Shown piece after piece: positions 1,089 through 32,038 of a stretch of DNA of 36,643 nucleotides (position 1 is the first letter of the stretch; the number at the start of each line of letters is the position of its first letter). The translations under genes and the position numbers were made by a program. This DNA is from an uncultured Nocardioidaceae bacterium (lineage in GTDB: Bacteria > Actinomycetota > Actinomycetes > Propionibacteriales > Nocardioidaceae), in contig CADCUJ010000031.1 of the NCBI GenBank assembly GCA_902805855.1, positions 5,909-42,551 of the forward strand, read 5' to 3'. Under the pieces are notes generated by a model that was given only the letters and a program-made list of their open reading frames with translations, did no database searches and was not told where the DNA came from.

Positions 1089-2369
1089 ATGAGCACAGAA
1101 GAGAACTGCTGTCAGGAGTACGAGCGGGCCGCCGGGATGAGCCGTCGTCGGTTCATGCAGGGCGTGGCTGCGACCAGCACCGCCGCGGTGGCGACCACCA
1201 TGTTCGGCGACGCGGTGCGCCAGGCCTCGTTCGGGAACACCGGCGGCAACGTGCTGGTGGTGATCAGCCTGCGCGGCGGCATCGACGGTCTGGGCATGGT
1301 CGTCCCGCACGGTGACCCGGCCTACTACACCGCGCGCAAGGGCATCGCGGTTCCCGCCGCCTCGCTCCTGGCGAAGGACGCCATGTTCGGGCTGCACCCG
1401 GCGATGAAGCCGGTCGAGTGGCTGTGGAACGCGGGCGAGCTGGCCGCCGTACAGGCAGTGGGGATGGACGTCCCGAACCGCTCACACTTCCTGGCCATGG
1501 AGCAGATCGAGGACGCCGCCCCGGGCTCGGACGCCCGGACCGGATGGGTGAACCGGATGATCGGCCTCGACGCCGACGCCTCACCCAGTGAGGCGATCCA
1601 CCTCACCGACTCGATCGTCCCGACCATGCTCGTTGGGGAGGCACCCAGCCTGTCGTGCTCCAAGCTGTCCCAGATCAAGCTCTCCGGCGACAAGGACCAG
1701 TTCAGCACCGGGCGGCGGGCACAGATCCAGACGATGTGGGCTCTGGAGGAGAACCCGCTCGGTGACGCTGTCCGTTCGGCCCTGGCGACCGTCAGCCAGC
1801 TGTCGCCGATCGCCCAGCAGCAGGTCGTGCCGCAGAACGGCGTGGTCTACCCACGCGAGTGGCCGGCGACCGACCTGTCGGACGCACTCAAGGACACCGC
1901 CCACCTGATCCGGGCCAACGTCGGCACCGAGGTGATCTCGATCGACTTCGGTTCCTGGGACATGCACAGCAGTTACGGCCGCAACGGGTCCGGTGAGATG
2001 CACTGGATGGTCGGCGGCTTCGCGGCTGAGCTGGACGCGTTCATGCGCGACCTCGGTCCCGATCTCCGTTCGCGGGTGACCGTGGTGACGATCAGCGAGT
2101 TCGGCCGCAGAGTAGCCGAGAACGGCAACCAGGGCCTCGACCACGGCTGGGGCAACATGATGCTCGTCGCCGGTGCCGGGGTGAAGGGTGGACGGTACTA
2201 CGGCGAGTGGCCCTGGCTCAGCGCAGGCAACCTCGTCGACGGCGACCTGAAGGTGACCACCGACTACCGCCAGGTGCTCGGTGAGGTCGTCACCACACGG
2301 TTCCCCGACCGGTCCATCGCGAGCGTCTTCCCGAGCCTGGACTACCGTCCGCTCGGCCTGATGGGCTGA
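1089..2369 (+). CDS. DUF1501 family protein, Tat-exported
   Basis: A 426-residue protein starting at ATG 1089 behind a GGAGAAG ribosome-binding site. Residues 18-25 read SRRRFMQG, a twin-arginine motif, followed by an alanine/threonine-rich hydrophobic stretch, so export of a folded protein by the Tat pathway is expected. The mature part begins with VLVVISLRGGIDGLGMVVP near residue 57, typical of DUF1501, and has late metal-site-like motifs (DFGSWDMHS, SEFGRR, DHGWGN) of the alkaline-phosphatase/sulfatase-like fold to which DUF1501 is related. The substrate is unknown. The gene sits 17 bases after the DUF1800 gene and 4 bases before a secreted peptidase-like gene, so the three are probably one transcript. 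Confidence 0.88.
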   Translation: MSTEENCCQEYERAAGMSRRRFMQGVAATSTAAVATTMFGDAVRQASFGNTGGNVLVVISLRGGIDGLGMVVPHGDPAYYTARKGIAVPAASLLAKDAMFGLHPAMKPVEWLWNAGELAAVQAVGMDVPNRSHFLAMEQIEDAAPGSDARTGWVNRMIGLDADASPSEAIHLTDSIVPTMLVGEAPSLSCSKLSQIKLSGDKDQFSTGRRAQIQTMWALEENPLGDAVRSALATVSQLSPIAQQQVVPQNGVVYPREWPATDLSDALKDTAHLIRANVGTEVISIDFGSWDMHSSYGRNGSGEMHWMVGGFAAELDAFMRDLGPDLRSRVTVVTISEFGRRVAENGNQGLDHGWGNMMLVAGAGVKGGRYYGEWPWLSAGNLVDGDLKVTTDYRQVLGEVVTTRFPDRSIASVFPSLDYRPLGLMG

Positions 2370-5563: not shown

Positions 5564-6451
5564 TCAGCCGAAGCGGCCGGAGATGTAGGCCTCGGTGCGG
5601 CTGTCGTCGGGGTTCGAGAAGATCCGGTTGGTCAGGTTGTACTCGACGAGCAGCCCGGTCCGGTTCCCGGTGGTCTCGTCGGGCCGCGCGGTGAAGAACG
5701 CGGTCCGGTCCGAGACCCGCGCCGCCTGCTGCATGTTGTGGGTCACCACGATCAGCGCGTAGTCCTTGCGCATCTCCAGCATCAGGTCCTCGATGCGGGA
5801 GGTCGCGATCGGGTCCAGCGAGGAACACGGCTCGTCCATCAAGATCACATCAGGCCGGGTGGCGACCGTCCGTGCGATGCACAGCCTCTGCTGCTGGCCA
5901 CCCGACAGGCCGTACGCCGACTGCTTGAGCTTGTCCTTGACCTCGTCCCACAGCGCCGCACTGTGCAGCGCCTCCTCGACGAGGTCGTCCATGTTGTCGA
6001 CCTTCATCCCCGTCACCCGCGGGCCGTAGGCGATGTTGTCGTAGATCGACTTGGGGAACGGGTTCGGCTTCTGGAAGACCATGCCGATGCGGCGTCGTAC
6101 CTCGATCGGGTCCACCTTCGGCCCGTAGACGTTCTGCCCGTGGTAGGTGACCGCGCCGGTGACCCGGGCACCGATCACCAGGTCGTTCATCCGGTTCAGG
6201 CAGCGCAGCACCGTGGACTTGCCGCAGCCGGAGGGGCCGATGAGTGCGGTGATCTCACCCCGTCCGAACGCCAGGTTCACGTCGTGCACGGCATGGAAGT
6301 CGCCGTAGTAGACGTTCAGGTCGGTGGCCTCGATCACCGGCTCCTGCGGCAGGTCGGGCACGACGTGCTCCCCGGTGTCGGCGACCTCGGCGAGGTTGGC
6401 CGCTCCGTAGACCGAGTCGCGGGTGTTGGCGGTGGCGGGCTTGGTTGTCAT
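5564..6451 (-). CDS. pstB: phosphate ABC transporter ATP-binding protein PstB
   Basis: A 295-residue ABC ATPase that energises high-affinity phosphate import. Walker [10 protein letters not shown] is at residues 72-80, the PstB-typical [18 protein letters not shown] at about 126-143, signature LSGGQQQR at 182-189, Walker B VILMDEP at 202-208 and the switch His in VVTHNM. The start is ATG 6451; the first 40 residues are a poorly conserved extension that is longer than in most PstB proteins. It is the last gene of pstSCAB on the minus strand, 11 bases after pstA. The operon order S-C-A-B is standard. In M. tuberculosis the orphan homologue PhoT lies beside mshD, recalling the mshD gene found further along in this window. 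Confidence 0.96.
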
Positions 6452-6462
6452 CAGTTGGTTCC

Positions 6463-7383
6463 TCACCAGCGGCGCTGGTAGTGGTTGCGGATGTAGATGG
6501 CGAGTCCGTTCAGGACGAGGATCATGACCAGCAGCACGATGATCGCAGCCGCCGCGGCCGTCTGGAACTCCTCCTGGGGCTGGCTGGACATGGTGAAGAT
6601 CTGGATCGGCAGCGCGGTGAACTGGCTCAAGATCCCGTTCGGGTCGAACCGGATACCGGTGGCGACGCCGAGCAGCAGCAGGGGAGCGGCCTCGCCGATC
6701 GCGCGGGACAGCGCCAGGATCGTCCCGGTCGCGATGCCGGGGATCGCCGAGGGCAGCGACTGGCGCCAGGTGGTCTGCCACAACGTGGCGCCGAGCGCCA
6801 GCGAGCCGTCCCGGATCTCGCGCGGGACCGCACGGATCGACTCCCGGGTGGTGATGATGATGACCGGCAGGATCAGCAGGGTCAGCGCCAGTGCCCCGCC
6901 GATCACCAGGGACGTCTGCCGGAACCCGCGCAGCGCCAGCAGGCCGAGAGCCAGCAGGCCATAGATCACCGAGGGAACCGCCGCGAGGTTCTGCAGGTTG
7001 ACCTCGATCAGCCGGTTGTACCACCGGGTGGGGTTGGCGAACTCCTCGAGGTACAGGGCGGCGGCGATTCCCAGCGGGACGGACATCACCGCCGTGGTCA
7101 CCATCAGCCACAGGCTCCCGAGGATGCCGGCCCGGACGCCGGTCTCCTCCTCGAAAAGGGTCGAGGAGTACTCGGTGAAGAGGTTCGCGTCGAGCCTTGG
7201 CGCACCGTCGAGCGCCGTGCTCGCGATCAGGACCAGCAGCACCAGGACGCCGAAGGCGAGCGAGCACCAGAGCGCGACCAGGAACGCGAGGGACCCCGCG
7301 TTGCGCTCGTGGTTCTGGCCGGTGTCCAGCACGCGAGTGCCTTCTTCGCGCCGCCTGCCGGGCTTGATCTGGGTCGTGGTCAT
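6463..7383 (-). CDS. pstA: phosphate ABC transporter permease PstA
   Basis: A 306-residue inner-membrane permease with a basic cytoplasmic N-terminus and six hydrophobic segments. The ABC permease EAA loop is visible around [18 protein letters not shown], and [16 protein letters not shown] in the middle is typical of PstA/PstC. Its ATG overlaps the pstC stop (TGATG), which implies translational coupling and a fixed PstC:PstA ratio. It forms the channel with PstC and is driven by PstB. Family assignment is secure. Confidence 0.95.
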
Positions 7384-8345
7384 CAGTAGGCCTGCCGGTA
7401 GCGACGGACCAGTGCGATGCTGACGACGTTGATGACCAGGGTCATCAGGAACAGCAGCAGGCCGACCGCGAAAAGCGTGTTGTAGGAGGTGGAGCCGACC
7501 GGGTTCTCGCCGCCGGCGGTGGCCGCGATGAAACCGGTCATCGTCTGCATCCCCTCGCGTGGGTCAGCCGAGAGGTTGGGCTGCGACCCCGACGCGAGCG
7601 CGACGATCATCGTCTCACCGATGGCGCGGGACAGTCCGAGCACGACGGCTGCGGCGATGCCGGAGATCGCAGCCGGGAACACCACCCGCAGGGTGGTCTG
7701 CATCCGGTTCGCACCCATCGCGAACGAGCCCTGACGCAGTGCCTGGGGGACCGCGCTCATGGCGTCCTCTGACAGTGAGGCCACCGTCGGGATGATCATC
7801 ACCCCGAGCACGATTCCCGCACTGAGCGCGTTGGTGAACCCGACCTCCATGCCGAGCAGGTCCTGCAGCACGGCTGGCGTGACGAAGGACAGGGCGAAGA
7901 ACCCGTAAACCACCGAGGGGATGCCGGCCAGCAGCTCCAGGATCGGCTTGAGCCTCGCTCGGTTCCGGGCGCTGGCGTACTCAGAGAGGTACATCGCGGC
8001 GCCGAGTCCGAGAGGTACGGCGACGACCAGCCCGATGGCGGTCACCATCAAGGTGCCACCGACCAGCGGGAGCACCCCGAAGGACTGGGGCGCCAGGTTG
8101 GGCGACCAGTCGGTGCCGGTCAGGAAGTCCCACACCGACACCTTGCCGAAGAAGTTGACGACCGGGACGGCGAGGGAGACCACGATGCCGATCGTGGTGA
8201 AGACCGACACGAAGGCCGCCGCCCGCAGCACGGCCATGACCAGCGACTCACCTCTCCTGGGCTTTCGGGTGAGGTCGAGGTCTCCTGGGAACGGCCCAGA
8301 GCCCGTCGAGGCCGACGGGCTCTGCGCAGTGGTGTTGCTCGTCAT
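7383..8345 (-). CDS. pstC: phosphate ABC transporter permease PstC
   Basis: A 320-residue permease with about six membrane segments. Motifs include [19 protein letters not shown] in the middle and [19 protein letters not shown] in the EAA-loop region, both characteristic of PstC. The N-terminal ~40 residues are hydrophilic and Ser/Thr-rich. It lies 10 bases downstream of pstS and overlaps pstA by one base. It partners PstA to form the phosphate channel. Confidence 0.95.
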
Positions 8346-8355
8346 CGGATGCGGA

Positions 8356-9336
8356 CTACAGCTCCTCGTCGAGGGTGGACTGCGTCTTGGCGAGCTGGTC
8401 GTCGTTCAGCGGAATGAACTCGGCCGCCTCTGCGATGTCGACCAGGTTCGAGATGTAGAAGTCGACGTACTCCTTGACGGCCGCCTTGTCGGCGTACGAC
8501 TGCTTGTTCACGTAGATGAACAGCGGGCGGGACAAGGGGGTGTACTCGCCGCTCTGTGCCGACTCGACCGAGGGAGCCACGCAGCCGTCACCGGAGTCGA
8601 CCTCGAGTGCCTTCAGCGTCTCGGCGTTCTCCTCGTAGTAGCTGAAGCCGAAGTACCCCAGCGCGCCCTCGGTGTTGGCCACACCCTCGACGATCACGTT
8701 GTCGTCCTCGGAGGACTCGTAGTCGGAGCGGGAAGCGCCCTCCTCACCGTTGATCTCGTCGGTGAAGTAGTCGAACGTGCCCGAGTCGGTCCCCGGGCCG
8801 AAGAGGCTGAGCTCGGTGTCCGGGAAGCTGGGGTCGACCTGGTTCCAGTTGGTGATCTTGCCCTGGGCGGCCGGCTCCCACATCGTCTTGAGCTGGTCGG
8901 TGGTGATGCAGTCGACCTCGAAGTCCTTCGGGACGACGACAGTCAGGGCGTCGGTCGCCACCTGGAGCTCGGTGTAGTCGACACCGCCCTCCTTGCAGAG
9001 GGGAACCTCCTCCTCCTCGTCGATCGGACGGGATGCGTCGGAGATGTCGGTCTTGTCGGCGCAGAAGGCCTCGAAGCCGCCGCCGGTGCCCGACGTGCCG
9101 ACCGTCACCTTGATGCCCGGGTTCTCCTCGCTGAGCAGTTCGGCCGCGGCGTCACTGAGCGGGAAGACGGTCGAGGAACCATCGATGGCGACGGAGCCCG
9201 AGGCGCCGGTGGAGCCGCCATCGGAGCCGGAGCCTTCATCGCCGGCGCTCTGGCCGCCGCACGCGGCGAGGGTCAAGGCGAGCGACGCTGCGAGAGCGGT
9301 CGGCGCGAGTGCCCGGCGCGTAAGGTTGCGGATCAC
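8356..9336 (-). CDS. pstS: phosphate-binding lipoprotein PstS
   Basis: A 326-residue periplasmic-type phosphate receptor tethered as a lipoprotein. From GTG 9336 the signal peptide carries two arginines, a hydrophobic core and a lipobox ending LTLAAC, with lipidated Cys26. A Ser/Gly linker follows, then the PstS motifs VAIDGSSTVFPLSDA, TVGTSGTGGGF and GPGTDSGTFDYFT that bind phosphate. I prefer GTG 9336 to the upstream GTG 9384 because an AAAGG site lies eight bases before 9336 and because a likely -10 (TAGCGT, 9395-9390) would start the transcript almost at 9384. First gene of pstSCAB, preceded by a PHO box. Confidence 0.95.
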   Translation of the reverse strand: MIRNLTRRALAPTALAASLALTLAACGGQSAGDEGSGSDGGSTGASGSVAIDGSSTVFPLSDAAAELLSEENPGIKVTVGTSGTGGGFEAFCADKTDISDASRPIDEEEEVPLCKEGGVDYTELQVATDALTVVVPKDFEVDCITTDQLKTMWEPAAQGKITNWNQVDPSFPDTELSLFGPGTDSGTFDYFTDEINGEEGASRSDYESSEDDNVIVEGVANTEGALGYFGFSYYEENAETLKALEVDSGDGCVAPSVESAQSGEYTPLSRPLFIYVNKQSYADKAAVKEYVDFYISNLVDIAEAAEFIPLNDDQLAKTQSTLDEEL

Positions 9337-9400
9337 TTCTGGTGCCTTTCGTGGAGATCGTGGTTTCGCTGTCTGCGAAGTCACTGGTGACGCTAGGCAG

Positions 9401-10457: not shown

Positions 10458-12596
10458 TCACTGTGCGGTACGACGCCGGCGGCTGGCGGTGATCAGGGTC
10501 TCCTGGAGGTCACGCAGCGGGGTGCCGTCCTGGTCGTGAGCGTGCCGGATCCAGTGGCCGTCGGACTGCAGCGCCCACGTCGCCGTCCCCTCGTCGAACG
10601 CGGCGTCCAGGATGCGGCCGACCTCCTCGACCTGGCGCTCACCCGGCAGCTGGACCAGGGCCTCCACCCGACGGTCGAGGTTGCGGTGCATCAGGTCAGC
10701 AGAGCCGATCCAGGCCTGCGGCTCGCCGGCGTTCTCGAACCAGAAGATCCTGCTGTGCTCCAGGAAGCGGCCCAGCACCGAACGCACTCGGACCGTCTCG
10801 GACAACCCAGGGACCTCGGGCCGGACGGCGCAGATGCTGCGGGTGAGCAGGTCGACCGGCACTCCGGCCCGGGAGGCCAGGTAGAGCTCGTCGACCACCG
10901 ACTCGTCGACGATCGAGTTCGCCTTCACCCTGATCCGCGCCGGCTTCCCCTCCCGGTGGTTGGTCACCTCCGACCGGATCCGCTCGATCAGCCCCTCTCG
11001 CAGTGAGTCAGGGGCGACCAGCAGCCGGTGGTAGTGCAGCTGCCGCGAGAACCCGGACAGGTTGTTGAACAGCAGGGCGACATCCTCGCCGATCTCCGGG
11101 TGCGAGGTGAGCAGGCCGAAGTCCTCGTAGTAGCGCGCGGTCTTCGGGTTGTAGTTGCCGGTCCCGATGTGCGCGTACCGGCGGATCCCCTCCGGCTCGT
11201 CGCGCACGACCAGCGCGAGCTTCGAGTGCGTCTTCAGCCCGATCAGGCCGTAGACGACGTGACAGCCGGCATGCTCGAGCTGCCGTGCCCAGCGAATGTT
11301 GGCGTGCTCGTCGAACCGGGCCTTGATCTCGACGATGACCAGCACCTGCTTGCCCGACTCGGCGGCGTCGATGAGTGCGTCGATGATCGGTGAGTCACCC
11401 GAGGTCCGGTACAGCGTCTGCTTGATCGCGAGCACGTGCGGGTCGGCGGCCGCCTGCTCGATGAACCGCTGCACGGAGGTGGAGAAGGAGTCGTACGGGT
11501 GGTGCAGGAGTACGTCGCGGCGCTGCAGGGCCGAGAACACGTCGACCGGCGACGACGACTCGACCTCGGCGAGGTCGCCGTGCGTGGTCGGGACGAAGGC
11601 CGGGTACTTCAGCTCGGCTCGGTCCAGCTCGACGATCCCGAGCAGCCCGCTGAGGTCGAGGGGTCCGGGAAGGCGCATCACCTCCGCCGCCGACACGCCG
11701 AGCTCGGAGACCAGCAGCTCGAGGATGTGCTCGTCGATCGACTCCTCCACCTCCAGCCGGACGGCGGGACCGAACCGACGCCGCAGCAGCTGGTTCTCCA
11801 GCGCCGCGAGCAGGTTCTCGGCGTCGTCCTCCTCCACCTCGAGGTCCTCGTTGCGGGTCACCCGGAACGTGTGGACGGCGACCACCTGCATGCCCGGGAA
11901 GAGGTGCTTGAGGTGCTCGGCCATCACGTCTTCCATCGGGACGAACCGCTGCTCGCCCACCGGTACGAACCGGGCGAAGATCGGGGGTACCTTGACCCGC
12001 GCGAAGTGCTCCTTGCCGGACTTCGGGTTGCGGGCCAGGACGGCCAGGTTCAGCGACAGGCCGGAGATGTAGGGGAACGGGTGCGCAGGGTCCACCGCCA
12101 GCGGAGTCAGGACCGGGAAGACGCGCTCCTTGAACAGCTTCTTGCACTGCTTCTGCTCCTCCTTGTCCAGGTCGGCCCACCGCAGCAGCTCGATCTCCTC
12201 CTTGGCGAGCGCAGGGACCAGGTCGTCGCGGAAGAGGGCCGCCTGCCGCTGCATCAGCTCACCGGTCGTGCGCAGGATCTGGGAGAGCACCTCGCGCGGC
12301 ATCAGCCCGGCGACGGTCGGTACGGCGACACCGGCGGCGATCCTGCGCTTCAGGCCGGCCACCCGCACCATGAAGAACTCGTCGAGGTTGGAGGCGAAGA
12401 TCGCCAGGAAACGTAGGCGTTCCAGCAGGGGGAGTCTGTCGTCCTCGGCGAGCTCGAGCACCCGGGTGTTGAAGTGCAGCCAGGACAGCTCCCGATCGAG
12501 GAACCGGTCGGGGAACTCCTGGTCGAGGGCGGCGGCACCGTCTTCGCTCAGTTCCGCGGAGGTGCCGGGCGCAGCCTGCTGCTCGCTGGTGGTCAT
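10458..12596 (-). CDS. ppk1: polyphosphate kinase PPK1
   Basis: A 712-residue enzyme that reversibly polymerises ATP gamma-phosphate into polyphosphate. The N-terminal domain opens with [17 protein letters not shown]; the head domain follows. The C-terminal phospholipase-D-like domains contain [20 protein letters not shown], with the autophosphorylated His at about residue 476, and [11 protein letters not shown] with the second essential His at about 637. The start is ATG 12596. A longer frame exists upstream but runs antisense into the neighbouring esterase and is rejected. The first ~30 residues (Gln/Ala/Ser/Asp/Glu-rich) look disordered. A degenerate PHO-box-like sequence lies just upstream, fitting PhoP control as described for Streptomyces ppk. 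Confidence 0.96.
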
Positions 12597-12604
12597 CTGC
12601 TCAT

Positions 12605-12624
12605 GGTGACACTTGTGGGTGAAC
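12605..12624 (-). promoter_or_regulatory. degenerate PHO-box-like site upstream of ppk1
   Basis: On the minus strand, GTTCACCCACA is followed by a second TCACC 14 bases later, within 28 bases of the ppk1 start. One unit is excellent; the second is out of the 11-bp register, so binding would be weaker than at pstS. The whole divergent ppk1/esterase spacer is only 58 bases, so the site may affect both genes. Confidence 0.4.
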
Positions 12625-12654
12625 GACGGGTTGCGACGAGTAGGTTGTGCTCGC

Positions 12655-13761
12655 ATGCGATCCGTCGAGGCCTGGCTGCTGCGGGCCCTGCTGCGGCTGC
12701 CCACGGCGGTGCAGCGGGCGCTCGCCGGCAGGTCGGTGGTCGTGGACGGCCAGCGGCTCGACGTGGAGATGCAGCTGCTGCTCCGCCTGCGACGGCTGCG
12801 CCGCGAGCCGGCGGTGGAGACCCTGTCCACCCAGGCCGCCCGCAAGGCGATGCGGCGCCAGACGCGGCTGGTCGGTGGGTCGCAGCCCATCGGCACGGTC
12901 TGCGACCTGCTGGTCCCCACACCGGACGGACCGATTCCGGCGCGGCTGTACGTGCCACGCTCCTCGGGCCCCATCTCAACGGGCACGGGCCCCATCTCAA
13001 CGGGCGCGGGCCCCATCTCAACGGGCGCGGGCCCCATCTCAACGGGGGCGGGGGCGCCGCTGCTGTTCTTCGTGCACGGCGGCGCGATGATGTACGGCGA
13101 CCTCGACAGCCACGACCCGGTATGCCGCTTCCTCGCCGAGAATGCCGACGTCCGGGTGCTCTCGGTCGACTACCGGCTCGCGCCGGAGCACCCGTTCCCG
13201 GCCGCTGTCGACGACTGCTGGGCGGCCTACCGATGGGTGACGGGCAACTGCGCGCTGCTCGGCATCGACCCGGACCGGATCGCCGTGGGAGGTGACTCCG
13301 CCGGTGGCTACCTGAGCGCCGTGGTCGCGACGCGTGCCGCCGAGGATGGCCTTCCGGTCAGGCATCAGCTGCTGGTCTATCCGGTGACGGACATGGCCGA
13401 GCGAAGCCGGAGCCGTCGAGTCTTCGGCGAGGGCTTCTACCTCACCACTGCCTTCATGGACCTGGCCGAAGATGCGTACCTTCGCTCCGGACCCGACCGC
13501 CGTGACCCGCGGGTGTCCGTCCGGTTCACCGCGCCCGTACCCGAGGGGCTGGCACCCGCTCACGTCGTCACTGCCGGGTTCGACCCGTTGCGCGACGAGG
13601 GCGAGGCCTACGCGCGGCTGCTTGCCGAGGCAGGAGTCCCCGTGGAGACCACCAGGTACCCGGGCCTGGTCCACGGCTTCTTGAGCATGGTGGGCGTGGG
13701 CCGCAGTGGCCGAACGGCCGCGATGGAGGTCGCCGGCAAGCTCAAGGCAGCGCTCGACTGA
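12655..13761 (+). CDS. HSL-family alpha/beta hydrolase (esterase) with internal heptapeptide repeat
   Basis: A 368-residue carboxylesterase of the hormone-sensitive-lipase family. The oxyanion motif is HGGAMMYGD (residues 141-149), the nucleophile elbow GGDSAGG (Ser215), the acid lies in [12 protein letters not shown] and the catalytic His in LVHGF. The N-terminal ~100 residues form the cap region. Just before the first beta strand of the core, residues 105-132 are four copies of GPISTGA/T, encoded by a 21-bp tandem repeat; ordinary family members have only a short loop here. The start is ATG 12655, divergent from ppk1. A TAGGTT -10-like hexamer at 12641 would give a nearly leaderless mRNA. 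The substrate is unknown. Confidence 0.88.
12966..13049 (+). repeat. four tandem copies of a 21-bp coding repeat
   Basis: Four head-to-tail 21-bp units (12966-12986, 12987-13007, 13008-13028, 13029-13049), each beginning GGGCCCCATCTCAACGGG. They differ by only two to three bases, at the unit ends. The period is seven codons, so copy changes preserve the reading frame of the esterase gene. This is a candidate variable-number tandem repeat. Confidence 0.95.
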
Positions 13762-23424: not shown

Positions 23425-23612
23425 GGCAACAGCGTAGGCGCACGCTCCGGGATCGGGCAGCGCTGTGTCGCGTTGCACCCTGCCACGAGTCGGGGGGACT
23501 CTACCCCGGCATCCGGCAACTCGGAATGGGCCGTCTGTGCGGTGGACAGGTGCCGCGTAATGCCGTTAGATCGTCAGTCAACCGTCATTTTCAATCTGTC
23601 GCCGTGAGTCCT

Positions 23613-23628
23613 TGCCTTGGGGAAGGCA
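23613..23628 (+). promoter_or_regulatory. hairpin in the leader of the glycan operon
   Basis: Perfect TGCCTT/AAGGCA stem with a GGGG loop, about 40 bases before a short upstream ORF (ATG 23670) and 95 bases before the dehydrogenase. The 298-base gap 23425-23722 otherwise holds a second small hairpin (GAGTC/GACTC around 23490) and a TAGATC hexamer near 23567 that could be a -10. The role is unknown. Confidence 0.3.
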
Positions 23629-23669
23629 GTGTCGGGCACGCGGTAGGTCTTCACCGAGGGGGTCGGGGG

Positions 23670-23726
23670 ATGAGTTTCGCACGCGAGCGCTCGTCGTGCG
23701 CGCATGTCAGCGGGTCGCGCGGGTGA
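23670..23726 (+). CDS. possible 18-residue upstream peptide coupled to the dehydrogenase gene
   Basis: ATG 23670 follows a GAGGGGG site seven bases upstream, and the short frame MSFARERSSCAHVSGSRG ends in TGA 23726, overlapping the GTG of the dehydrogenase as GTGA. The dehydrogenase itself has no good ribosome-binding site, so termination/reinitiation from this peptide could supply its ribosomes. It may equally be a chance ORF. No homologue is recognised. Confidence 0.3.
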   Translation: MSFARERSSCAHVSGSRG

Positions 23727-25003
23727 GCGTCGTTGCAGTGGTCGGACTCGGCTACGTCGGGCTGCCCCTCGCGACTCGGGCGGCTGAGGTCGGCCACACT
23801 GTCATCGGCCTGGACTCCGACGAGACCAAGCTGTCCGCGCTGGGTCTCGGTTGCTCGCACGTGGAGGACGTCTCGGACGAGCGGCTCGCAGCCGTCATGC
23901 GCGAGGGGCGGTTCCGCCTGGTCCTCGCCACACCCACTCAGGGTGATCCTGCCCGCTACGACTACGGATTCAACGGCTTCGACATCGGCATCATCACCGT
24001 GCCCACTCCTTTGGAGGACGGCAAGCCGGACCTGTCCTACGTGGAGGGCGCTGCTCGCACCTTGGGCAGGAGGCTGCGCCCCGGCGGTGTGGTCGTCCTG
24101 GAGTCCACGTCGTACCCCGGTACGACCGAGGGGCTGGTGGCCGACGTGCTCCTCGAGGAGTCCGGTCTGCAACCCGAGGTGGACTACCACCTCGGTTTCT
24201 CCCCGGAGCGGATCGACCCTGGCAACGAGCAGCACGACTTCGAGACCACGCCGAAGCTCGTCTCCGGCACCGACGCCGCTGCCCTGGCCGCGGTCGAGTC
24301 GTTCTACGCGGGCCTGGTGAAGGAGACCGTCCCGGTCTCGTCTCCTACCGTCGCCGAGTGCGCGAAGCTCTTCGAGAACATCTTCCGGCAGGTCAACGTG
24401 GCGCTGGTCAACGAGATGGCGACCCTGGCGCACGACCTGGACATCGACTTCTGGCAGGTGCTCGACGCCGCTGCGTCCAAGCCCTACGGGTTCATGAAGT
24501 TCACCCCTGGTCCCGGCGTCGGCGGACACTGCATCCCGGTCGACCCCGGCTACTTCACGTGGTTCGCGCAACGCCGTCTCGGCAGGTCCTCGCGCTTCAT
24601 CGAGCTGGCCCAGGAGGTCAACGAGGGGATGCCGGGGTACGTCGTCGAGCGGGCTGAGGAGATGTTGGGCAGGAGCGGGCTCCTGGGCGCGCAGGTCCTG
24701 GTGCTCGGCGTCAGCTACAAGAAGGGCACCGCCGATCAGCGGAAGTCGCCCGGCCGCAGCATCGTCGATCTGCTGCTCGACGCGGGCGCCTTGGTCACCG
24801 TGACCGACCCGTATGCGCGAAACTGGACCGCCACGACGTCGCTGGACGCCTCCGAGGCCGCTGGTCGAGCGGCCGACTTCGACCTGGTGATCTTGGCTAC
24901 CGACCACGACGAGTTCGACTTCGAGGCGATCGGCCGCTCGGCCCGGCTCGTCTTGGACTGCCGTCGCCGGATGCCGGCGAACGAGAGTGTGCACACGCTG
25001 TGA
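23723..25003 (+). CDS. nucleotide-sugar 6-dehydrogenase (UDP-GlcNAc/UDP-Glc type)
   Basis: A 426-residue NAD-dependent enzyme that oxidises a UDP-sugar to the uronic acid. The Rossmann motif VVGLGYVGLP is at residues 6-15; the central helix and second domain follow; the catalytic motif GPGVGGHCIPVDP has Cys270. The PVDP ending is more typical of UDP-GlcNAc/ManNAc dehydrogenases (WbpA/WecC group) than of UDP-glucose dehydrogenases (Ugd/HasB). An insertion of roughly ten residues (PTQGDPARYDYGFNG) follows the second Rossmann strand. GTG 23723 is chosen because it places GLGYVG at the usual distance. Its stop overlaps the next start (GTGA). It would supply a uronic-acid donor to the downstream synthase. 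Confidence 0.9.
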   Translation: MSVVAVVGLGYVGLPLATRAAEVGHTVIGLDSDETKLSALGLGCSHVEDVSDERLAAVMREGRFRLVLATPTQGDPARYDYGFNGFDIGIITVPTPLEDGKPDLSYVEGAARTLGRRLRPGGVVVLESTSYPGTTEGLVADVLLEESGLQPEVDYHLGFSPERIDPGNEQHDFETTPKLVSGTDAAALAAVESFYAGLVKETVPVSSPTVAECAKLFENIFRQVNVALVNEMATLAHDLDIDFWQVLDAAASKPYGFMKFTPGPGVGGHCIPVDPGYFTWFAQRRLGRSSRFIELAQEVNEGMPGYVVERAEEMLGRSGLLGAQVLVLGVSYKKGTADQRKSPGRSIVDLLLDAGALVTVTDPYARNWTATTSLDASEAAGRAADFDLVILATDHDEFDFEAIGRSARLVLDCRRRMPANESVHTL

Positions 25004-26097
25004 TCGCACGGTTCCTGGTGGCGGTCGCGCTGGCGCTTCTCGCGGCTGCGGGTGTTCCACCGTCGGCCACGGCGGCGGAGTCCGGGACCCCGACGCAGAC
25101 AGTCGTGACGCTGACCTTCGACGACGGTTGGCGGTCACAGCTGCCGGCCGCCGAGGCGATGGCGGCCCGCGGAATGGTGGGTACCTTCTTCATCGCCTCC
25201 GGCCAGGTCGGTTACCCGGCGTTCATGACGGTCAAGGAGCTGCGGGACCTGCAGAGCGCCGGTCATGAGATCGGCGGGCATACGCTGAGCCACCCGCGGC
25301 TGACCGAGATGCCGCTGGACAAGGCCCGCCACCAAGTGTGCAGCGACCGCACCGGCCTGCTGCAGCTGGGTCTGCAGGTGACGTCGTTCGCCTACCCGTA
25401 CGGCGACCACAACCGGGCGGTGCGAAGGCTCCCACAAGAGTGCGGCTACAACAGCGCCCGGCTGGGTTGGGGGCTCTACAGCGGCCGAGATCGCTGCAGC
25501 TTCTGCCTGACGGCGGAGAGCCTGCGCGTCTACGATCCCTGGTCGGTCCGCCCAGTGGCGCCGCACCTCTTCGTCGGGAAGCAGGCCCTTCCGCAGCTCA
25601 AGCGGGCAGTCCTGGACGCAGAGGTCAGAGGCGACTGGCTGCCCCTGGTCTTCCACCACGTGTGCGCTCCGAAGTGCAAGGACCCGGGGATCGCCCTGTC
25701 CGACCTCGAGAAGTTCCTCGACTGGCTGGGGGCCCGTGCACCCACCACGGTGGTGCGCTCGGTGGAACAGGTCGTCTCCGGCTCGGTGCAGCCTGCCGTC
25801 GGCCCTCCGCCCTGGCAGATCGGTGGGGTCTCCCTGCCGCCGCCTGACAAGGCGGAAAAGGCAGCCATGGCGGCCGCCCGCGGAGTCACCCCCAAGCAGA
25901 AGGCGGCGATCCTCGCCAACGCACGGGAGCGTCGACAGGAGCAGGCGCTGGCCCGAGACGCGGCGGCGAACACCGCCTTCACGATCCCGTCGATCGACAT
26001 CGGCCAGCTCGAGGTGATCGTGCTCTTCTGCGGGACCGCCGTGATCGGTGTCACGGTGTTCCGGCTCGGCACTCGAAGAAGGCGATACGAGTGGTGA
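25000..26097 (+). CDS. membrane-anchored polysaccharide deacetylase (CE4, NodB-like)
   Basis: A 365-residue extracellular deacetylase. Residues 1-26 are a signal peptide. The NodB domain shows motif 1 TFDDG (39-43) with the metal Asp, and motif 2 HTLSH (94-98) with the two metal histidines, then FAYPYGDHN. After a helical, Ala/Lys-rich stalk (about 285-325), residues 333-355 form a membrane helix followed by RRRRYEW, so the enzyme faces outward with its C-terminus inside. Substrates of this family are N-acetylated glycans such as chitin oligomers, poly-GlcNAc or peptidoglycan. Its overlaps with the dehydrogenase (GTGA) and the next synthase tie it to the same polymer. Several cysteines in the middle may be disulfide-bonded. 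Confidence 0.92.
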   Translation: MIARFLVAVALALLAAAGVPPSATAAESGTPTQTVVTLTFDDGWRSQLPAAEAMAARGMVGTFFIASGQVGYPAFMTVKELRDLQSAGHEIGGHTLSHPRLTEMPLDKARHQVCSDRTGLLQLGLQVTSFAYPYGDHNRAVRRLPQECGYNSARLGWGLYSGRDRCSFCLTAESLRVYDPWSVRPVAPHLFVGKQALPQLKRAVLDAEVRGDWLPLVFHHVCAPKCKDPGIALSDLEKFLDWLGARAPTTVVRSVEQVVSGSVQPAVGPPPWQIGGVSLPPPDKAEKAAMAAARGVTPKQKAAILANARERRQEQALARDAAANTAFTIPSIDIGQLEVIVLFCGTAVIGVTVFRLGTRRRRYEW

Positions 26098-27458
26098 GCA
26101 GCCGCACAGGCCGCAGTCGGCCGCTCTCAAGGCGGCAGCAGACGCTCACCGCGGTTCTTCTCACGACCTTCGTGCTCTACGTTCTCTGGGCGAACCTCCG
26201 CTGGTCGGTGCTCGAGGTGTGGCCACTCGTCGCCTTCTACGGTGGCGTTGCCCTGGTGGCGTTCGGGACGATGCTGGCGGGCACCCGTTGGCGCCGGTTC
26301 GCGCACCTGCCGCCCGCCACCGGCCGGATCATCGCCGTCGTCCCCACCTACAACGAGGCTCCGTCGAGCCTTCGGGAGACCATCCTGGGGCTGGCGGAAC
26401 AGACCATCCCCCCGGACGAGATCCATGTCGTCGACGACGGCTCACTGGAGCCGGTGGTGGCTTTCCACCACCCGCTGGTGCGGTGGCACCGCCAGGAGAA
26501 CCTCGGCAAGCGCCACGCCCAGGCCAACGCGCTACGCCGCTTCGATGCCAGTGAATGGGACTACGTGCTGACCGTCGACTCGGACTCGGTTCCGGACGAG
26601 GACGCGGTCGAGCACCTCTTGCGTGCGATGAGCGACTCGAGGGTGCAGGCCGCCACCGGCATGATCTTGATGCGCAACTGGCGGGACAACCTGCTCACCC
26701 GTCTGGTGGACATCAACGTGGTGATGACCTGCCTGACCTTCCGGATGGTCCGGTCCTGGCTGGGCGTGGTGTCGCCGACATCTGGGGCGCTGGCGCTCTA
26801 CCGTGCCGGGGTCGTCTACGACAACCTGGAGGACTACGTCCGGTCAGGCAACATCGGCGACGACAGGAGGCTGAGCTTCTACGCCCTGCTGCGGGGCCAG
26901 GTCGTGGGCGTCAGCGACGCGGTCGTCGAGACTCAGCTGCCCGCCACCTTCCGAGGTACCTTCAAGCAGCGGCTGCGGTGGAGCAAGTCGGCCTGGCTGG
27001 GCGTCCCGTTCGTAGCCCGGGACCTGCGCCCACTCGCGGTGCTGTTCTACATGTTCCCGCTCGTGTTCACCCTGATGTGGCCACTGGTGGTCGTGATGCT
27101 GGCCAGGGTGCAGTACCTCTATGACAAGCCGGCTCTGCTCTACGGCTTCCTCTACTGGGAGGTCGTGGCGATCGCGATGACCGGCATCTGCGCGGTCTAC
27201 CGCCCTGACTTCTCGGTGCGGGACAAGCTGTTGATGTGGGCCCTGGCTCCGCTCTACCCGCTGCTCGGGGCCCTGCTGCTCCGGCCAGCCGCCTTCTGGG
27301 CGCTGGCCAGGCTGAGGTCCCAGTCGTGGGACACCCGGGGGAGCGCTCCCGCCGCAGAGACAGGTGTCGCGCCGGTGGTACCCCTGTTCCCCACGCAGCG
27401 CACTCCTAGCGAGTTGGAGATGCCGGGCGTGGTCATCGAGCAGGAGACCACCGGCTGA
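26094..27458 (+). CDS. processive membrane glycosyltransferase 2 (hyaluronan/chitin-synthase-like)
   Basis: A 454-residue integral membrane GT2. Two N-terminal helices precede the GT-A domain: VVPTYNE, VVDDGS, TVDSDS (the DxD), SGALALYR, GDDRRLSFYAL and QRLRWSKS (QxxRW), the set that marks processive synthases of the HAS/NodC type. GDDR with LSFYALLRG is especially HAS-like. Three to four C-terminal helices follow and would form the export channel, then a cytoplasmic Pro/Thr tail. GTG 26094 gives a GTGA overlap with the deacetylase stop; GTG 26091 is an equal alternative. With a uronate-forming dehydrogenase and a deacetylase alongside, it probably makes a GlcNAc- or uronate-containing polymer. 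The actual repeat unit cannot be read. Confidence 0.9.
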   Translation: MSSRTGRSRPLSRRQQTLTAVLLTTFVLYVLWANLRWSVLEVWPLVAFYGGVALVAFGTMLAGTRWRRFAHLPPATGRIIAVVPTYNEAPSSLRETILGLAEQTIPPDEIHVVDDGSLEPVVAFHHPLVRWHRQENLGKRHAQANALRRFDASEWDYVLTVDSDSVPDEDAVEHLLRAMSDSRVQAATGMILMRNWRDNLLTRLVDINVVMTCLTFRMVRSWLGVVSPTSGALALYRAGVVYDNLEDYVRSGNIGDDRRLSFYALLRGQVVGVSDAVVETQLPATFRGTFKQRLRWSKSAWLGVPFVARDLRPLAVLFYMFPLVFTLMWPLVVVMLARVQYLYDKPALLYGFLYWEVVAIAMTGICAVYRPDFSVRDKLLMWALAPLYPLLGALLLRPAAFWALARLRSQSWDTRGSAPAAETGVAPVVPLFPTQRTPSELEMPGVVIEQETTG

Positions 27459-27559
27459 GCTGCCGCCCGGACTGACGGCTCGACCCGCAAACGCCCACTT
27501 TCAGATCCGCGAGATTGGCCGGCAGCGCTTTGGGGTAGACGGCGTTGCGGACATATCCC

Positions 27560-27589
27560 AGTGGGTGTGCGTCCTCATTGGTACGGTAT
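27560..27589 (+). promoter_or_regulatory. candidate promoter/operator motif before the LamG gene
   Basis: AGTGGG (27560-27565) and ACGGTAT (27583-27589) are 17 bases apart, followed by TTTA and GACATC. The same words in the same order precede the LPNTG peptide gene on the other strand (spacing 18). The 161-base gap 27459-27619 is less GC-rich than its surroundings and holds no gene. Which sigma factor or activator would read this is unknown. Confidence 0.35.
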
Positions 27590-27619
27590 GTCTGTTTACG
27601 ACATCCCGGAGAGTTCTCA

Positions 27620-28456
27620 ATGCGCCGTTCGTCCGCTGTCGGTCGCCTCGTACTGGTTCTGGCCGCCTTGTCCGTCATCCTGGCCGGGCAGGCCGCGGCC
27701 TCCTTCTCGGCGACCACTTCGGCGACCACTTCCTCGTCGGTCACGTCGCGCTACGAGCGAACGGTGCTGGCGGACCGGCCGGCGGCGTTCCTCCAGCGTG
27801 GCCGGGACATCACCGGCCGGGGCGGCAACGGGGTGTTCGTGGGCGCCTACCGGACGACGCACCTGCCCAACGGCGACCCCGCCGTCGCCTTCGCCGGCCG
27901 CGGGCAGTTCCTCCGGTTCGCCGACCGCCCGGCATTCCGCGTCACCAGCAGGGGGGTGCTCACCGTCGAGTACTGGATCCGGCCGGACACCTTGCAGTTC
28001 TCCGACGAGGAGGGCAGTGGGTACGTCTATCTACTGGGGAAGGGTGACCCGGGCCAACACGAGTGGTATGGCCGGATGTACTCACGGGTCAACGCGGAGT
28101 CACGGCCGAACCGGCTCAGTGGCTACGCCTTCAACTCCTCCGGCGGCCTTGGCGCTGGCAGCTACTTCCAGGACGCTGTCGTTCTCGGCCGGTGGATCCA
28201 CGTCGTGCTCGTGATCAACAGCGTGCACAAGAGCCGGCAGTACCCGATGGGGTACACGAAGATCTACAAGAACGGCGATCTGCGGGACAAGGACTCGCTG
28301 GCCGACTACGACATCCGGCCCAGGTCCGGAGACTCACCGCTGCGGATCGGGACCGGCTACCGGGACAGCTTCTTCGAAGGTGCGGTCGGAGACGTGGCGT
28401 TCTACAAGTACGAGCTTTCGGCCACCCGCGTGCGTACGCACGCGGACGCCATGTAG
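27620..28456 (+). CDS. secreted LamG/concanavalin-A-like domain protein
   Basis: A 278-residue exported protein. ATG 27620 is six bases after GGAGAG. Residues 1-27 are a signal peptide ending AAA, followed by a short Ser/Thr linker. The rest is one LamG/jellyroll (Laminin_G_3-type) domain: AVAFAGRGQFLRFADRP, LTVEYWIRPDTLQF, WIHVVLVINS, MGYTKIYKNGDL, RIGTGYRDSFFEGAVGDVAF. Such domains bind glycans or act as glycan-display modules; no catalytic residues are evident. There is no LPXTG or membrane tail. It follows the synthase by 161 bases with its own promoter-like motif, and ends 35 bases from the converging sortase gene. A glycan-binding role in this locus is inferred. Confidence 0.82.
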   Translation: MRRSSAVGRLVLVLAALSVILAGQAAASFSATTSATTSSSVTSRYERTVLADRPAAFLQRGRDITGRGGNGVFVGAYRTTHLPNGDPAVAFAGRGQFLRFADRPAFRVTSRGVLTVEYWIRPDTLQFSDEEGSGYVYLLGKGDPGQHEWYGRMYSRVNAESRPNRLSGYAFNSSGGLGAGSYFQDAVVLGRWIHVVLVINSVHKSRQYPMGYTKIYKNGDLRDKDSLADYDIRPRSGDSPLRIGTGYRDSFFEGAVGDVAFYKYELSATRVRTHADAM

Positions 28457-28491: not shown

Positions 28492-29214
28492 CTATTTCAT
28501 CTCGACACCAGCGAGGTGTGCGAAGGCGATCATCCTGTTGTCTGTGTGGAACAGCTCCGAGCAGGTCACCAGGGTCAGCAGCCGTTCGTGGCCGCGAGCG
28601 GGATTCAGGCCTCCCGGGTCTGGATTGGCGGGTCTGCGGTGTAGGACCCAGGTTTCCTGGAAGTCGACGATGAGGCCATTGGGGTCGGTGTCGAGCCGGT
28701 AGGTGTAGATCGCGCGCCGGCTCTCCACGATCACCTTGTCGCCGGGGCGAAGCTTCGGCATCTCACGCAGCGGCTCTCCGTTAGTGACGCGGTGGCCGGC
28801 GATCACGAAGTTTCCCCTGCTGCCCAGCTGCGCGGTGGCCGGGATGTGGCCGTAGCCTGCCGCCAGCTCCCGCTCGCGCACGCCCTCCAGCAGAGGGACT
28901 TCGTAGTCGTCGCCGAACCTCGGGACACGAACGAGCGCGTAGGCCTCGCCGAGCTGCGGCGCGGGAGTCGGTGCGGCCCGGGCAGGTCCGCGGTCGCTGC
29001 TGGTAGCGGGCTTCGGGTCGGCCGAGACGACCCGCGGCGTCGCGTCGGCGCTCCAGACGGCTGTCAGCTCGTCGGCCGTGCGCTCCTGTACCTGTCGGGA
29101 CACGTAGTTGGTCCCGTACAGCTGCCAGCCGAGGTATCCCAGGACACCTATGCTGCTCAACAGCAACGTCGTCCACAACGCCAGGCGGACCGACCGCTTC
29201 GGTTGGGTCAGCAT
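28492..29214 (-). CDS. sortase (class E-like)
   Basis: A 240-residue membrane-anchored transpeptidase. Residues 11-33 form an N-terminal helix, residues 60-90 a Pro/Ala-rich linker, and the sortase barrel follows. Catalytic residues are all present: His141 in VIAGHRVTNGEPL, Cys218 in LVTCSELFHTDNR and Arg227 in the same motif. The TCSELFHTDNR signature is typical of actinobacterial class E-type sortases, which usually prefer LAxTG substrates; the only sorting signal in this operon is LPNTG. ATG 29214 lies 13 bases after the GT2 stop; an upstream ATG at 29283 would add 23 residues overlapping that gene. The third gene of the minus-strand operon. Confidence 0.9.
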   Translation of the reverse strand: MLTQPKRSVRLALWTTLLLSSIGVLGYLGWQLYGTNYVSRQVQERTADELTAVWSADATPRVVSADPKPATSSDRGPARAAPTPAPQLGEAYALVRVPRFGDDYEVPLLEGVRERELAAGYGHIPATAQLGSRGNFVIAGHRVTNGEPLREMPKLRPGDKVIVESRRAIYTYRLDTDPNGLIVDFQETWVLHRRPANPDPGGLNPARGHERLLTLVTCSELFHTDNRMIAFAHLAGVEMK

Positions 29215-29227
29215 GGTCGTTCGCCGG

Positions 29228-30316
29228 TCAGGCCGCTGCGCGGACAGGTTCGGAGGTGTCTGCGCGTCCCTTCTCGTAGTCATGCATGCCCTGGGAGACA
29301 CCAAGGGGCACCAGGACGAGCTCGACGATCAAGGCCTTCCACGCGTAGGCGAAGTTGATCGCCTTGACGACGTAGAGCGCCGGTATGCACGCGATCACAT
29401 GAAGGACAGGTACTCGCCGCCGGATGGCGCCGTACAGCAATGGCGGCCCCAAGAGAGCGAACTCCGCACCGAAGAACCAGATCGCGGCGGTGGTCGGTGA
29501 CCAGTCGAACACGAAGAGGAACACGAGCGGCATCGCGTACCACAGCGGCACCGTCAGGATCTCCCAGACCGCGAGGAAGACCCACAGGGCCAGCAGACGC
29601 TTGCGCAACACGAGATCCTTGCTGTGGATCCGCACATTCTGGAAGAAGCCCGCCATCCAGCGCCACACCTGCTTGCGCAGGTAGGTGAAGTCCTCCGGGT
29701 CGGCGGCATACGCGACCGCCGAGCCCACGTAGACCGCACGCTTGCCCGCGATCTGTTGGCTCCACGTGTAGTCCATGTCCTCGACGATGGTCCGCTCCGG
29801 GAAACCGCCGAACTCCACCAGCGCCAGGCGGCGGAACGCCGAGTTGCATCCCGAGCACACCACCGGCGAGTTGGCCGCGTTCTGGATGGGCCGGTGCCAG
29901 TGGAAGCCGAACAGGTACTCGATCATCCGTCCCCGCTCGGGGGTGCTGCGAGAGTGCTTGGGCAGCACGCATCCAGCCGCGATCACAACCGCGGGGTCGT
30001 GGAACGGCTTCTTGATCCGCTCGACGTAGTCAGGCGCGAGCACCGTATCCGCATCGATTGCCAGGACCAGGTCGGTCTTGCAGTGCGGAAGCGCGAAGTT
30101 CTGCGCTCGAGCCTTGCTCCCGAGGTTGTGCGGCGGAGTCAGGACGGTGACGCCATGCGCCAACGCCACGTCCCGCGTTCGATCAGTCGAAGCGTCGTCA
30201 GCGACGATGATCTCGTCGAAGGGCACAGTCTGAGCCAGCAGTGACTCGAGAGTCTCAGAGATGCCGTCTTCTTCGTTGTACGCCGGGACGATCGCCGTGA
30301 CCGTCAGGGCGGTCAC
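29228..30316 (-). CDS. membrane glycosyltransferase family 2 (second, sortase-linked)
   Basis: A 362-residue GT2 with the GT-A domain first: VTAIVPAYNEEDGI, IVADDAST, AIDADT (DxD), CSGCNSAFRRLAL, VEDMDYTWSQQ and QVWRW (QxxRW), followed by three to four hydrophobic helices from about residue 235. The pattern is that of processive polysaccharide synthases, but it lacks the two N-terminal helices of the synthase at 26094. The start is GTG 30316, which overlaps the stop of the 39-residue LPNTG peptide gene as GTGA. The long open frame upstream to 30778 runs through the promoter region and is rejected. Its polymer or acceptor is unknown; co-translation with an LPXTG peptide and a sortase suggests that the product ends up at the cell wall. 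Confidence 0.88.
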   Translation of the reverse strand: MTALTVTAIVPAYNEEDGISETLESLLAQTVPFDEIIVADDASTDRTRDVALAHGVTVLTPPHNLGSKARAQNFALPHCKTDLVLAIDADTVLAPDYVERIKKPFHDPAVVIAAGCVLPKHSRSTPERGRMIEYLFGFHWHRPIQNAANSPVVCSGCNSAFRRLALVEFGGFPERTIVEDMDYTWSQQIAGKRAVYVGSAVAYAADPEDFTYLRKQVWRWMAGFFQNVRIHSKDLVLRKRLLALWVFLAVWEILTVPLWYAMPLVFLFVFDWSPTTAAIWFFGAEFALLGPPLLYGAIRRRVPVLHVIACIPALYVVKAINFAYAWKALIVELVLVPLGVSQGMHDYEKGRADTSEPVRAAA

Positions 30317-30432
30317 TGCTTCCAGTGCTCCCGCAGCAGAGCGGTGCCAGCGATGATCAGGCCGACCAGCGCCACCAAGAGGTAGATGGGCGTGCTGATG
30401 TTGAGCCCCGTGTTGGGAAGTGCGCCATACAT
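30313..30432 (-). CDS. 39-residue LPXTG micro-peptide (sorting signal only)
   Basis: ATG 30432 is preceded by a GGGGGA site seven bases upstream. The peptide reads MYGALPNTG at its N-terminus, then a ~22-residue hydrophobic helix and the basic tail LLREHWKQ. These are all three parts of a cell-wall sorting signal, with almost nothing in front. There is no signal peptide; the basic tail predicts N-out/C-in insertion, which would place LPNTG outside. TTG 30519 (68 residues) and TTG near 30459 (48 residues) are possible longer starts but have no ribosome-binding site. Its TGA overlaps the GT2 GTG. Sortase cleavage between T and G would leave an eight-residue peptide. It might be a substrate, a regulator or an assembly peptide. 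Confidence 0.7.
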   Translation of the reverse strand: MYGALPNTGLNISTPIYLLVALVGLIIAGTALLREHWKQ

Positions 30433-30455
30433 ACGATGTCCCCCATAAATGTTCA

Positions 30456-30785: not shown

Positions 30786-31934
30786 CTAGCGATCGAGCTC
30801 TGTGCGGACCGCGCGCCACATGCGCGGATCCTCGCCTCCGAGACGCCAGAAGAAGATGCCCCGCAGCCCGTAGCTGCGCACCACGCGCGCCCGCTTGACC
30901 AGCGCCCCACTGTCCTCGTACCACACGTGGTGCCTGGTGCCGCTCTGCTGGAACGAGTAACGGGCCGATCGAGTGGCGCGGTCGAAGACACGACTCGCCC
31001 CCACCTGGTTGCGCAGCGTTTCGATCGAGCGCCATTCCAGGTCCTCCACCGGTGACTTGTCACCGGCCCAGTGGTAGCCGTACGTGGGTGCCCCGAGCAT
31101 GATCTTGTCAGCAGGGATCTGGGTGACCGCGAACTCGGCCTGCTCCTTCCACCACCACAGCGGCGACTGTGAGCCATGTCCGTTGTCAGGCCAGTAGTCG
31201 TAGAGCATGATGTGGACCTCATCGGCGACCGCTCCGATGGCCTTCCAGTTCTGGATGTGGTGGCGAGGCTGGTTTCCAGGTTCCGACAGCTTCGGTTGCA
31301 CGGTGACCGAGAGCTTCTTGCCTGCCGTGTGTAGCGCAACGGCAAGCTCTCGCACGAAGAGGCTGAACACGGCACGGTCCTCAGAACGCGTCCCGTGTTC
31401 GTAGTCGACGTCGATCCCGACGTATCCCTTGTCGACGGCCAGGCGCACCAAGGCTCGCACGTGGGCCGCTCGCAGTGACGCGTCGTTGAGAAGCTTGCTC
31501 ACGGTGTCCCAGCGCCACTGGCCCTTGCCGTAGTAGTTGGCGACTACTCCCCACACTGCGGTCCCGGCCTCGTTGGCCTCGTCGACGAACAAGGTGTCCT
31601 CGACCGTCACCCCTGGCTGCTGCAAGGACAGGCTGCCGTCGGCGGCATCTGAGGGCCGCCACCATGAGGGCGAGATCTCGTCGATGAACTGGCCGTGCTG
31701 GCGGTAGGACGCCTTGCCCTGGGCGGCGGCCGTGTAGGACAGGTACGCCATCATCTTCGGGCGCGACACGGGTTCGGCCGCTGCCTCTTCCAGTGCAGCG
31801 TCGGAGATCGTCGTCGTGCCGATGGTGACCAGCGCCCCTACCAGCAGCGAGAGGAGAAGAGCTCGACCGCACGTGCGGCTTCGCGACAGACCAGACAAGC
31901 GGACCACTCCTCCTATGCCACTCATAACGGGCAT
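30786..31934 (-). CDS. secreted glycoside hydrolase family 18 (YaaH/chitinase-like)
   Basis: A 382-residue exported hydrolase. After a signal peptide (about residues 20-46) comes a GH18 barrel: PKMMAYLSYTAAAQ, a mid GYVGIDVDYEHG with the DxDxE catalytic motif (acid Glu179), VTVQPKLSEPG, EVHIMLYDYWPDNG, IMLGAPTYGYHW and a terminal GIFFWRLGGEDP. The set resembles the YaaH/SpoVID-associated GH18 group more than classical chitinases, and substrates with GlcNAc linkages are expected. ATG 31934 follows AGGA; TTG 31898, ten bases after a perfect AGGAGG, is a real alternative that would leave a compact signal peptide. Next to GlcNAc-type synthases and a deacetylase, it may trim or release the polymer. 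Confidence 0.87.
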   Translation of the reverse strand: MPVMSGIGGVVRLSGLSRSRTCGRALLLSLLVGALVTIGTTTISDAALEEAAAEPVSRPKMMAYLSYTAAAQGKASYRQHGQFIDEISPSWWRPSDAADGSLSLQQPGVTVEDTLFVDEANEAGTAVWGVVANYYGKGQWRWDTVSKLLNDASLRAAHVRALVRLAVDKGYVGIDVDYEHGTRSEDRAVFSLFVRELAVALHTAGKKLSVTVQPKLSEPGNQPRHHIQNWKAIGAVADEVHIMLYDYWPDNGHGSQSPLWWWKEQAEFAVTQIPADKIMLGAPTYGYHWAGDKSPVEDLEWRSIETLRNQVGASRVFDRATRSARYSFQQSGTRHHVWYEDSGALVKRARVVRSYGLRGIFFWRLGGEDPRMWRAVRTELDR

Positions 31935-32038
31935 ATCGATCCTACGATGCGAAGGGGGTCCCCAGGACCGGAAAGAGCTGATTGCGGGTAGTGGTCCGGC
32001 TGGAGGGGCGAGGGCGAGCACCGGTTACGGTGCGTGAC

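Follow-up and report, generated by a model that had tools for sequence, protein, structure and literature searches.

A membrane microprotein encoded directly upstream of a processive-type glycosyltransferase (GT2) appears to be the constant partner of this enzyme, most likely as a small subunit with its N-terminus outside and its C-terminus inside, and in those lineages in which its short outer stub carries the motif L-[PA]-x-T-G this stub would also be a sortase substrate. We give this reading a little better than an even chance, and the physical partnership between the microprotein and the GT2 is what we infer from the evidence presented below. The operon concerned is located on the minus strand of the stretch of DNA analyzed here, 36,643 nucleotides of an uncultured Nocardioidaceae bacterium, which we refer to as the window.

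The layout of the operon is given in Table 1. An earlier note on this DNA had described a 39-residue micro-ORF with its own ribosome-binding site and the pattern LPNTG, helix and basic tail, a GTGA overlap of this micro-ORF with the GT2 gene, and a class E-like sortase gene in third position, and all of these elements were found. The frame of the micro-ORF stays open up to a TTG at 30519, and the ATG given in Table 1 is favored as the start because relatives conserve the beginning M-Y-G. AG-rich stretches resembling a ribosome-binding site are present at the equivalent place upstream of the micro-ORFs of relatives. The window peptide has an uncharged N-terminal tail of eight residues, the LPNTG motif, a single membrane helix and a basic tail, and it exceeds the cut-offs of the sorting signal models PF00746 Gram_pos_anchor of Pfam (21.1 versus 20 bits) and TIGR01167 of NCBIfam (19.9 versus 15.9). 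The motif starts at residue 5 and the peptide has neither a signal peptide nor an exported mature domain; in agreement with what had been noted before, the predicted cut between Thr8 and Gly9 would leave eight residues, MYGALPNT. The sortase, whose ATG is located 13 nt 3′ of the GT2 stop codon, exceeds the cut-off of the NCBIfam model NF033747 class_E_sortase (171.9 versus 160 bits), contains the catalytic His, Cys and Arg motifs, and is one of five sortases in the same genome.

Table 1. Features of the minus-strand operon in the window (positions are those of the window).
Feature	Position	Strand	Details and basis
Ribosome-binding-site-like GGGGGAC, 5′ of the micro-ORF ATG	30439..30445	(-)	Read from sequence
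Micro-ORF, 39 aa, MYGALPNTGLNISTPIYLLVALVGLIIAGTALLREHWKQ	30313..30432	(-)	ATG at 30432; stop TGA ending at 30313
GTGA overlap of micro-ORF stop (TGA) and GT2 start (GTG)	30313..30316	(-)	Read from sequence
Processive-type GT2, 362 aa	29228..30316	(-)	GTG start at 30316; motifs, family models and predicted fold
Class E sortase, 240 aa	28492..29214	(-)	ATG at 29214; NF033747 and catalytic motifs AGHR, TLVTC and NR

Searching for GT2s closely related to that of the window yielded about 64 loci (57-76% identity) from Nocardioidaceae, Streptomyces, Actinomadura, Actinoallomurus and Nonomuraea. Using a profile based on 16 seed peptides, we found a micro-ORF upstream of the GT2 gene and on the same strand in 62 of the 62 loci with enough upstream sequence; L017 and L047, whose upstream regions are cut by contig ends, were left out of this number. 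A search of 296 Streptomyces genomes, some of which are also represented in the first set of loci, identified the GT2 in 18 genomes and the micro-ORF in all 18 of these. The presence of the micro-ORF ahead of the GT2 gene in every testable relative points to a partner of the synthase. Profile matches such as L090 and L085, which do not adjoin a GT2 of the window family, were rejected as chance matches. Clustering of the neighborhoods of the GT2 loci revealed no third gene common to most of them. Since neither Thr-Gly, nor a sortase, nor a third gene is constant (see below for the former two), the unit that has been kept in evolution is the microprotein plus the GT2. A literature search found no description of this pairing.

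The commonest arrangement in the relatives is a 4-nt overlap (ATGA or GTGA); in a few loci the micro-ORF ends tens of bases to about 350 nt ahead of the aligned GT2 start. One Streptomyces group has another arrangement, in which the micro-ORF continues for about 30 to 160 nt, tens of codons, past the start of the GT2 gene, resulting in a dual-frame stretch and a microprotein with a His-rich or Ser-rich tail (loci L011, L014, L016, L027-L029, L037, L042-L044, L052, L054, L061, L062 and L064-L066).

Alignment of 37 of the peptides showed that M1, G9 and Y17 are invariant and that G3 and S13 are nearly so. For the micro-ORFs of the window and its nearest relative, L003, pS was 0.66 and pN 0.19 (pN/pS about 0.3), and for the clade in which the microprotein lacks Thr-Gly (the non-TG clade) pN/pS was 0.44 over 27 disjoint pairs; partial saturation of pS between distant sequences makes these ratios rough. 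The excess of synonymous over non-synonymous changes, and the conservation of the short N-terminal tail, the helix and the basic tail across orthologous loci, are contrary to the two outcomes that the earlier note had named as refuting its proposal, and show that the micro-ORF is under purifying selection. Charges are distributed asymmetrically: none of the 72 peptides has a K, R, D or E before the helix Tyr, and the tail is net-basic in 68 of them. Together with the positive-inside rule, this pattern implies that the microprotein is oriented with the N-terminus outside and the C-terminus inside.

The window GT2 contains the motifs DxD, ED and QxxRW followed by membrane helices C-terminal to the catalytic domain, and stays below the cut-off of the TIGR03937 PgaC_IcaA equivalog model (93.7 versus 422.3 bits). 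In its AlphaFold2 model (pLDDT 88.5, pTM 0.84) a strand of the catalytic domain begins at residue 6, and there is no N-terminal membrane helix. VIA-align aligned 325 residues of the model to Chlorella virus hyaluronan synthase with a Z score of 28.6 and an rmsd of 3.1, and residue 1 of the model fell on residue 79 of that enzyme. Z scores were 25.2 for PcManGT, aligned from residue 40, and up to 25.1 for BcsA. All three of these enzymes have a membrane helix ahead of the catalytic domain, whereas the chain of the window GT2 lacks such a helix; the microprotein may supply or stabilize it. At locus L026 the micro-ORF and the GT2 gene share one frame, with a TAG between them. Reading this TAG as Gln, we modeled the fused chain from an alignment of two fused rows only, and the microprotein helix was placed on residues 44-71 of hyaluronan synthase and, in PcManGT, on the helix at the N-terminus (residues from 9); this placement is suggestive only, because the pLDDT of the helix is about 50 and the covalent join biases its position.

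The earlier note had labeled the product of the micro-ORF an LPXTG micro-peptide. This label fits the window peptide, which passes the anchor models, but not most of the relatives, which encode a related microprotein without the scissile Thr-Gly (LPFIG, PPTLG, LPMIG, LPGLG). Forms with Thr-Gly (TG forms) are a minority: LPNTG in the window and L003, and LAHTG, LAYTG, LAQTG and LATTG. Such LP/LAxTG peptides score above or close to the cut-off of the LPXTG-anchor models. Among the TG forms T and G are fixed, P alternates with A, and x is N, H, Y, Q or T, or else V or I in a second family described below; across the large non-TG clade L-P and G are retained despite the absence of Thr-Gly. In a tree of 59 GT2s, 52 are paired with a non-TG microprotein and seven with a TG form, and a single branch with support 100/96 separates these two groups. 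With distant GT2s as the outgroup, the tree showed the non-TG forms as nested (98/94), so that the TG form is probably the older one, on a weakly supported root (63/47) with very long outgroup branches. Because TG versus non-TG corresponds to one event in the tree, the first family contains no independent replicates of the link between TG and sortase. The pairing of 52 out of 59 GT2s with a non-TG microprotein rules out cleavage by a sortase as what the family is basically for, so that a role independent of sortases must exist.

Only the window and L003, the two LPNTG loci, have an adjacent sortase gene, in both cases directly after the GT2 gene, and no sortase was found within the fetched flanks of the Streptomyces LA-x-TG loci. 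We therefore rejected an adjoining sortase as a general rule. For the L003 sortase the nearest model is class E, yet its score is below the cut-off (141.3 versus 160 bits). In the window and L003 the sortases of the operon are only 38% identical and did not group together in a poorly resolved tree, which counts against the reading favored here; independent recruitment of the two was considered and not adopted. LA-x-TG is found in Streptomyces, and LAXTG is the signal that class E sortases of this genus act on, which favors recognition by a sortase; either Ala or Pro is tolerated by SrtE1, and Tyr229 has been linked to the preference for LAXTG (PMC5148588). At the position equivalent to Tyr229 the window sortase reads GHI and that of L003 reads GHY, each of them being encoded next to an LPNTG peptide; this residue did not consistently tell LP from LA.

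A phylum-wide search with a 37-position profile, for which only some candidates were scored and most of these were chance matches, brought to light a second family of microproteins, with LPVTG, in another class (MYGVLLPVTGVAIGLYALVAVTCVIIGSLMRMRGKGTNR and relatives). Here the order of genes is UDP-GlcNAc 2-epimerase, microprotein, a gap of 30-100 nt, and a fusion gene in which DUF2334, a deacetylase-like domain, is followed by a membrane helix and then by a GT2 that carries QRTRW. Profile comparison of the second family with the TG microproteins gave a score of 46.0 (probability 97%), above the scores of 25.3 and 15.8 obtained when either family was compared with ordinary LPXTG tails. One close pair of second-family members differs by 20 synonymous and three non-synonymous changes. 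The existence of a similar LPVTG microprotein in another class indicates that the motif is probably old. Among the DUF2334-GT2 loci the microprotein is present in seven or eight, and absent in at least three that have intact upstream sequence. Hence, the pairing of microprotein and GT2 is not obligate in the second family. Provision of a missing helix is not a general role, since the second-family GT2 has its own helix and some of its genes lack the microprotein.

The second-family genomes have one to three sortases, which are located away from the pair and for which the nearest model is class E, with scores below the cut-off. In each of the five that were read (L179-L181, L183 and L184; genomes G557, G629 and G674) AGDR replaces AGHR at the position of the catalytic His, and the Cys (TCD) and Arg are retained. 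Genome G798 encodes a second microprotein at L194:7218-7418 (-), with LPITG and 66 aa long (MYGAMLPITGVSIGIY...); it is located near an ArsR-like gene, some 11 kb away from the first one, and its tail is longer and charged.

The mechanism that we favor is as follows. The microprotein would supply or stabilize the helix that hyaluronan synthase, BcsA and PcManGT carry ahead of the catalytic domain, and in the L-[PA]-x-T-G lineages, including the window, its eight-residue outer stub would probably also be acted on by a sortase. The class E sortase encoded in the operon and co-transcribed with the microprotein could cut between Thr8 and Gly9 and hand MYGALPNT to an amine of the wall or of the glycan, and the partner of the synthase would be turned over or marked in this way. 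One large clade would have dropped the sortase step and retained the partner. Sortase processing is then probably a lineage-specific layer on the partner role, and it may be that the glycan becomes tethered or primed. A more elaborate version, in which the N-terminal helix of the synthase is a separate microprotein that also serves as substrate for the sortase and whose stub becomes joined to the emerging glycan or the wall, so that ending or anchoring the chain would be tied to making it, we regard as improbable.

The earlier note had itself proposed sortase transpeptidation as the mechanism. Part of what this proposal presupposes is found, in that the product is real, translationally coupled and linked to a GT2 and, where Thr-Gly is present, its motif shows the kind of variation seen in sortase signals; as a general mechanism it falls short, given the 52 of 59 non-TG pairings. 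In its strict form the microprotein would be a dedicated sortase substrate, cut at Thr8-Gly9, of which the eight residues are joined to an amine of the wall or glycan and prime, tether or cap the glycan made by the GT2. The invariance of T-G at variable x among the TG forms of two families argues for this, as do the scores with the anchor models, the operon sortase in both LPNTG genomes and the probably greater age of the TG form, and the deacetylase-like DUF2334 domain of the second family could expose sugar amines. However, most members have neither Thr-Gly nor an adjoining sortase, no sortase is present in the fetched flanks of the Streptomyces LA-x-TG loci, the second-family sortases that were checked sit elsewhere and have AGDR where the catalytic His is expected, and no glycan-linked peptide is known. 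We consider a dedicated substrate a tentative possibility, although rather an unlikely one.

The opposite view, that LPNTG is vestigial or coincidental, takes L-P-x-x-G as a structural turn and assumes that no sortase acts on the window peptide. It would explain why L-P and G persist in the non-TG clade, and it is consistent with an N-terminal tail of just eight residues and no cleavable signal peptide; that T is invariant among the TG forms while x changes in at least five ways, and that a class E-type sortase gene comes next in both LPNTG genomes, makes this view unlikely in our estimation. The least credible is that the micro-ORF acts as a leader ORF whose translation only couples or times that of the GT2 gene, the peptide itself being without a role. 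The position directly upstream and the 4-nt overlap in most loci are what would be expected of a leader, but selection at the level of amino acids, invariant residues, a strictly asymmetric distribution of charges and a membrane helix found across families would not be, and overlap coupling is not universal, as some micro-ORFs end tens to hundreds of bases early.

The window peptide shares with LPXTG/LAXTG sorting signals (PF00746, TIGR01167) the motif, the hydrophobic helix, the basic tail and the adjacent class E sortase. Unlike these, the window peptide lacks a signal peptide and any extracellular domain beyond eight residues, and the microprotein of the first family is always paired with a GT2 and mostly lacks Thr-Gly. 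Small LAXTG proteins are also curated in NCBIfam NF058583 LAXTG_small_WW. This model did not match the window peptide and matched L006 weakly (16.8 bits versus a cut-off of 65); a search of Streptomyces with it gave matches below the cut-off, none of which was taken as a member of the window microprotein family. As judged from these comparisons, the two are different families. PEP-CTERM/exosortase is a precedent for a transpeptidase-type sorting signal linked to exopolysaccharide loci, but its substrates have signal peptides and large domains and are handled by an EpsH-type exosortase in outer-membrane bacteria (PMC1569441), whereas in the present operon a very small peptide is combined with a sortase of class E.

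With hyaluronan synthase, BcsA and PgaC/IcaA the window GT2 has in common DxD, ED, QxxRW and a membrane bundle after the catalytic domain; the N-terminal helix in the same chain sets those synthases apart. IcaD, PgaD and BcsF are small accessory membrane subunits encoded beside a processive GT2. The non-overlapping forms of the microprotein are 29-42 residues long and contain a single helix, and a comparison of limited depth found no homology to these subunits.

A conserved partner of this size is easily missed by gene finders. If it is a true partner, the GT2 gene alone may be inactive, and the way in which these actinobacterial synthases are expressed and assayed would change. In addition, a sorting signal present in some lineages and lost in others constitutes a natural experiment as to whether glycan synthases can be acted on or regulated by sortases.

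Several other genes in the window may be mentioned. A GH18-family gene (30786-31961) shares the minus strand with the micro-ORF and lies about 350 nt upstream of it; L003 has a 39% identical relative of it about 2 kb downstream of the GT2 gene, on the opposite strand. The regions 1-2369 (+), 5564-9384 (-) and 10458-13037 (-), as read from their translations, appear to contain a DUF1800/DUF1501-like secreted pair, a phosphate-transport (pst-like) operon and a polyphosphate-kinase-like gene. Finally, a cluster at 23612-28456 (+) converges on the operon and encodes a nucleotide-sugar dehydrogenase, a polysaccharide deacetylase with a C-terminal helix, a NodC/hyaluronan-synthase-like GT2 with QRLRW, and also a LamG-domain protein; a possible source of a uronic acid sugar is the dehydrogenase.
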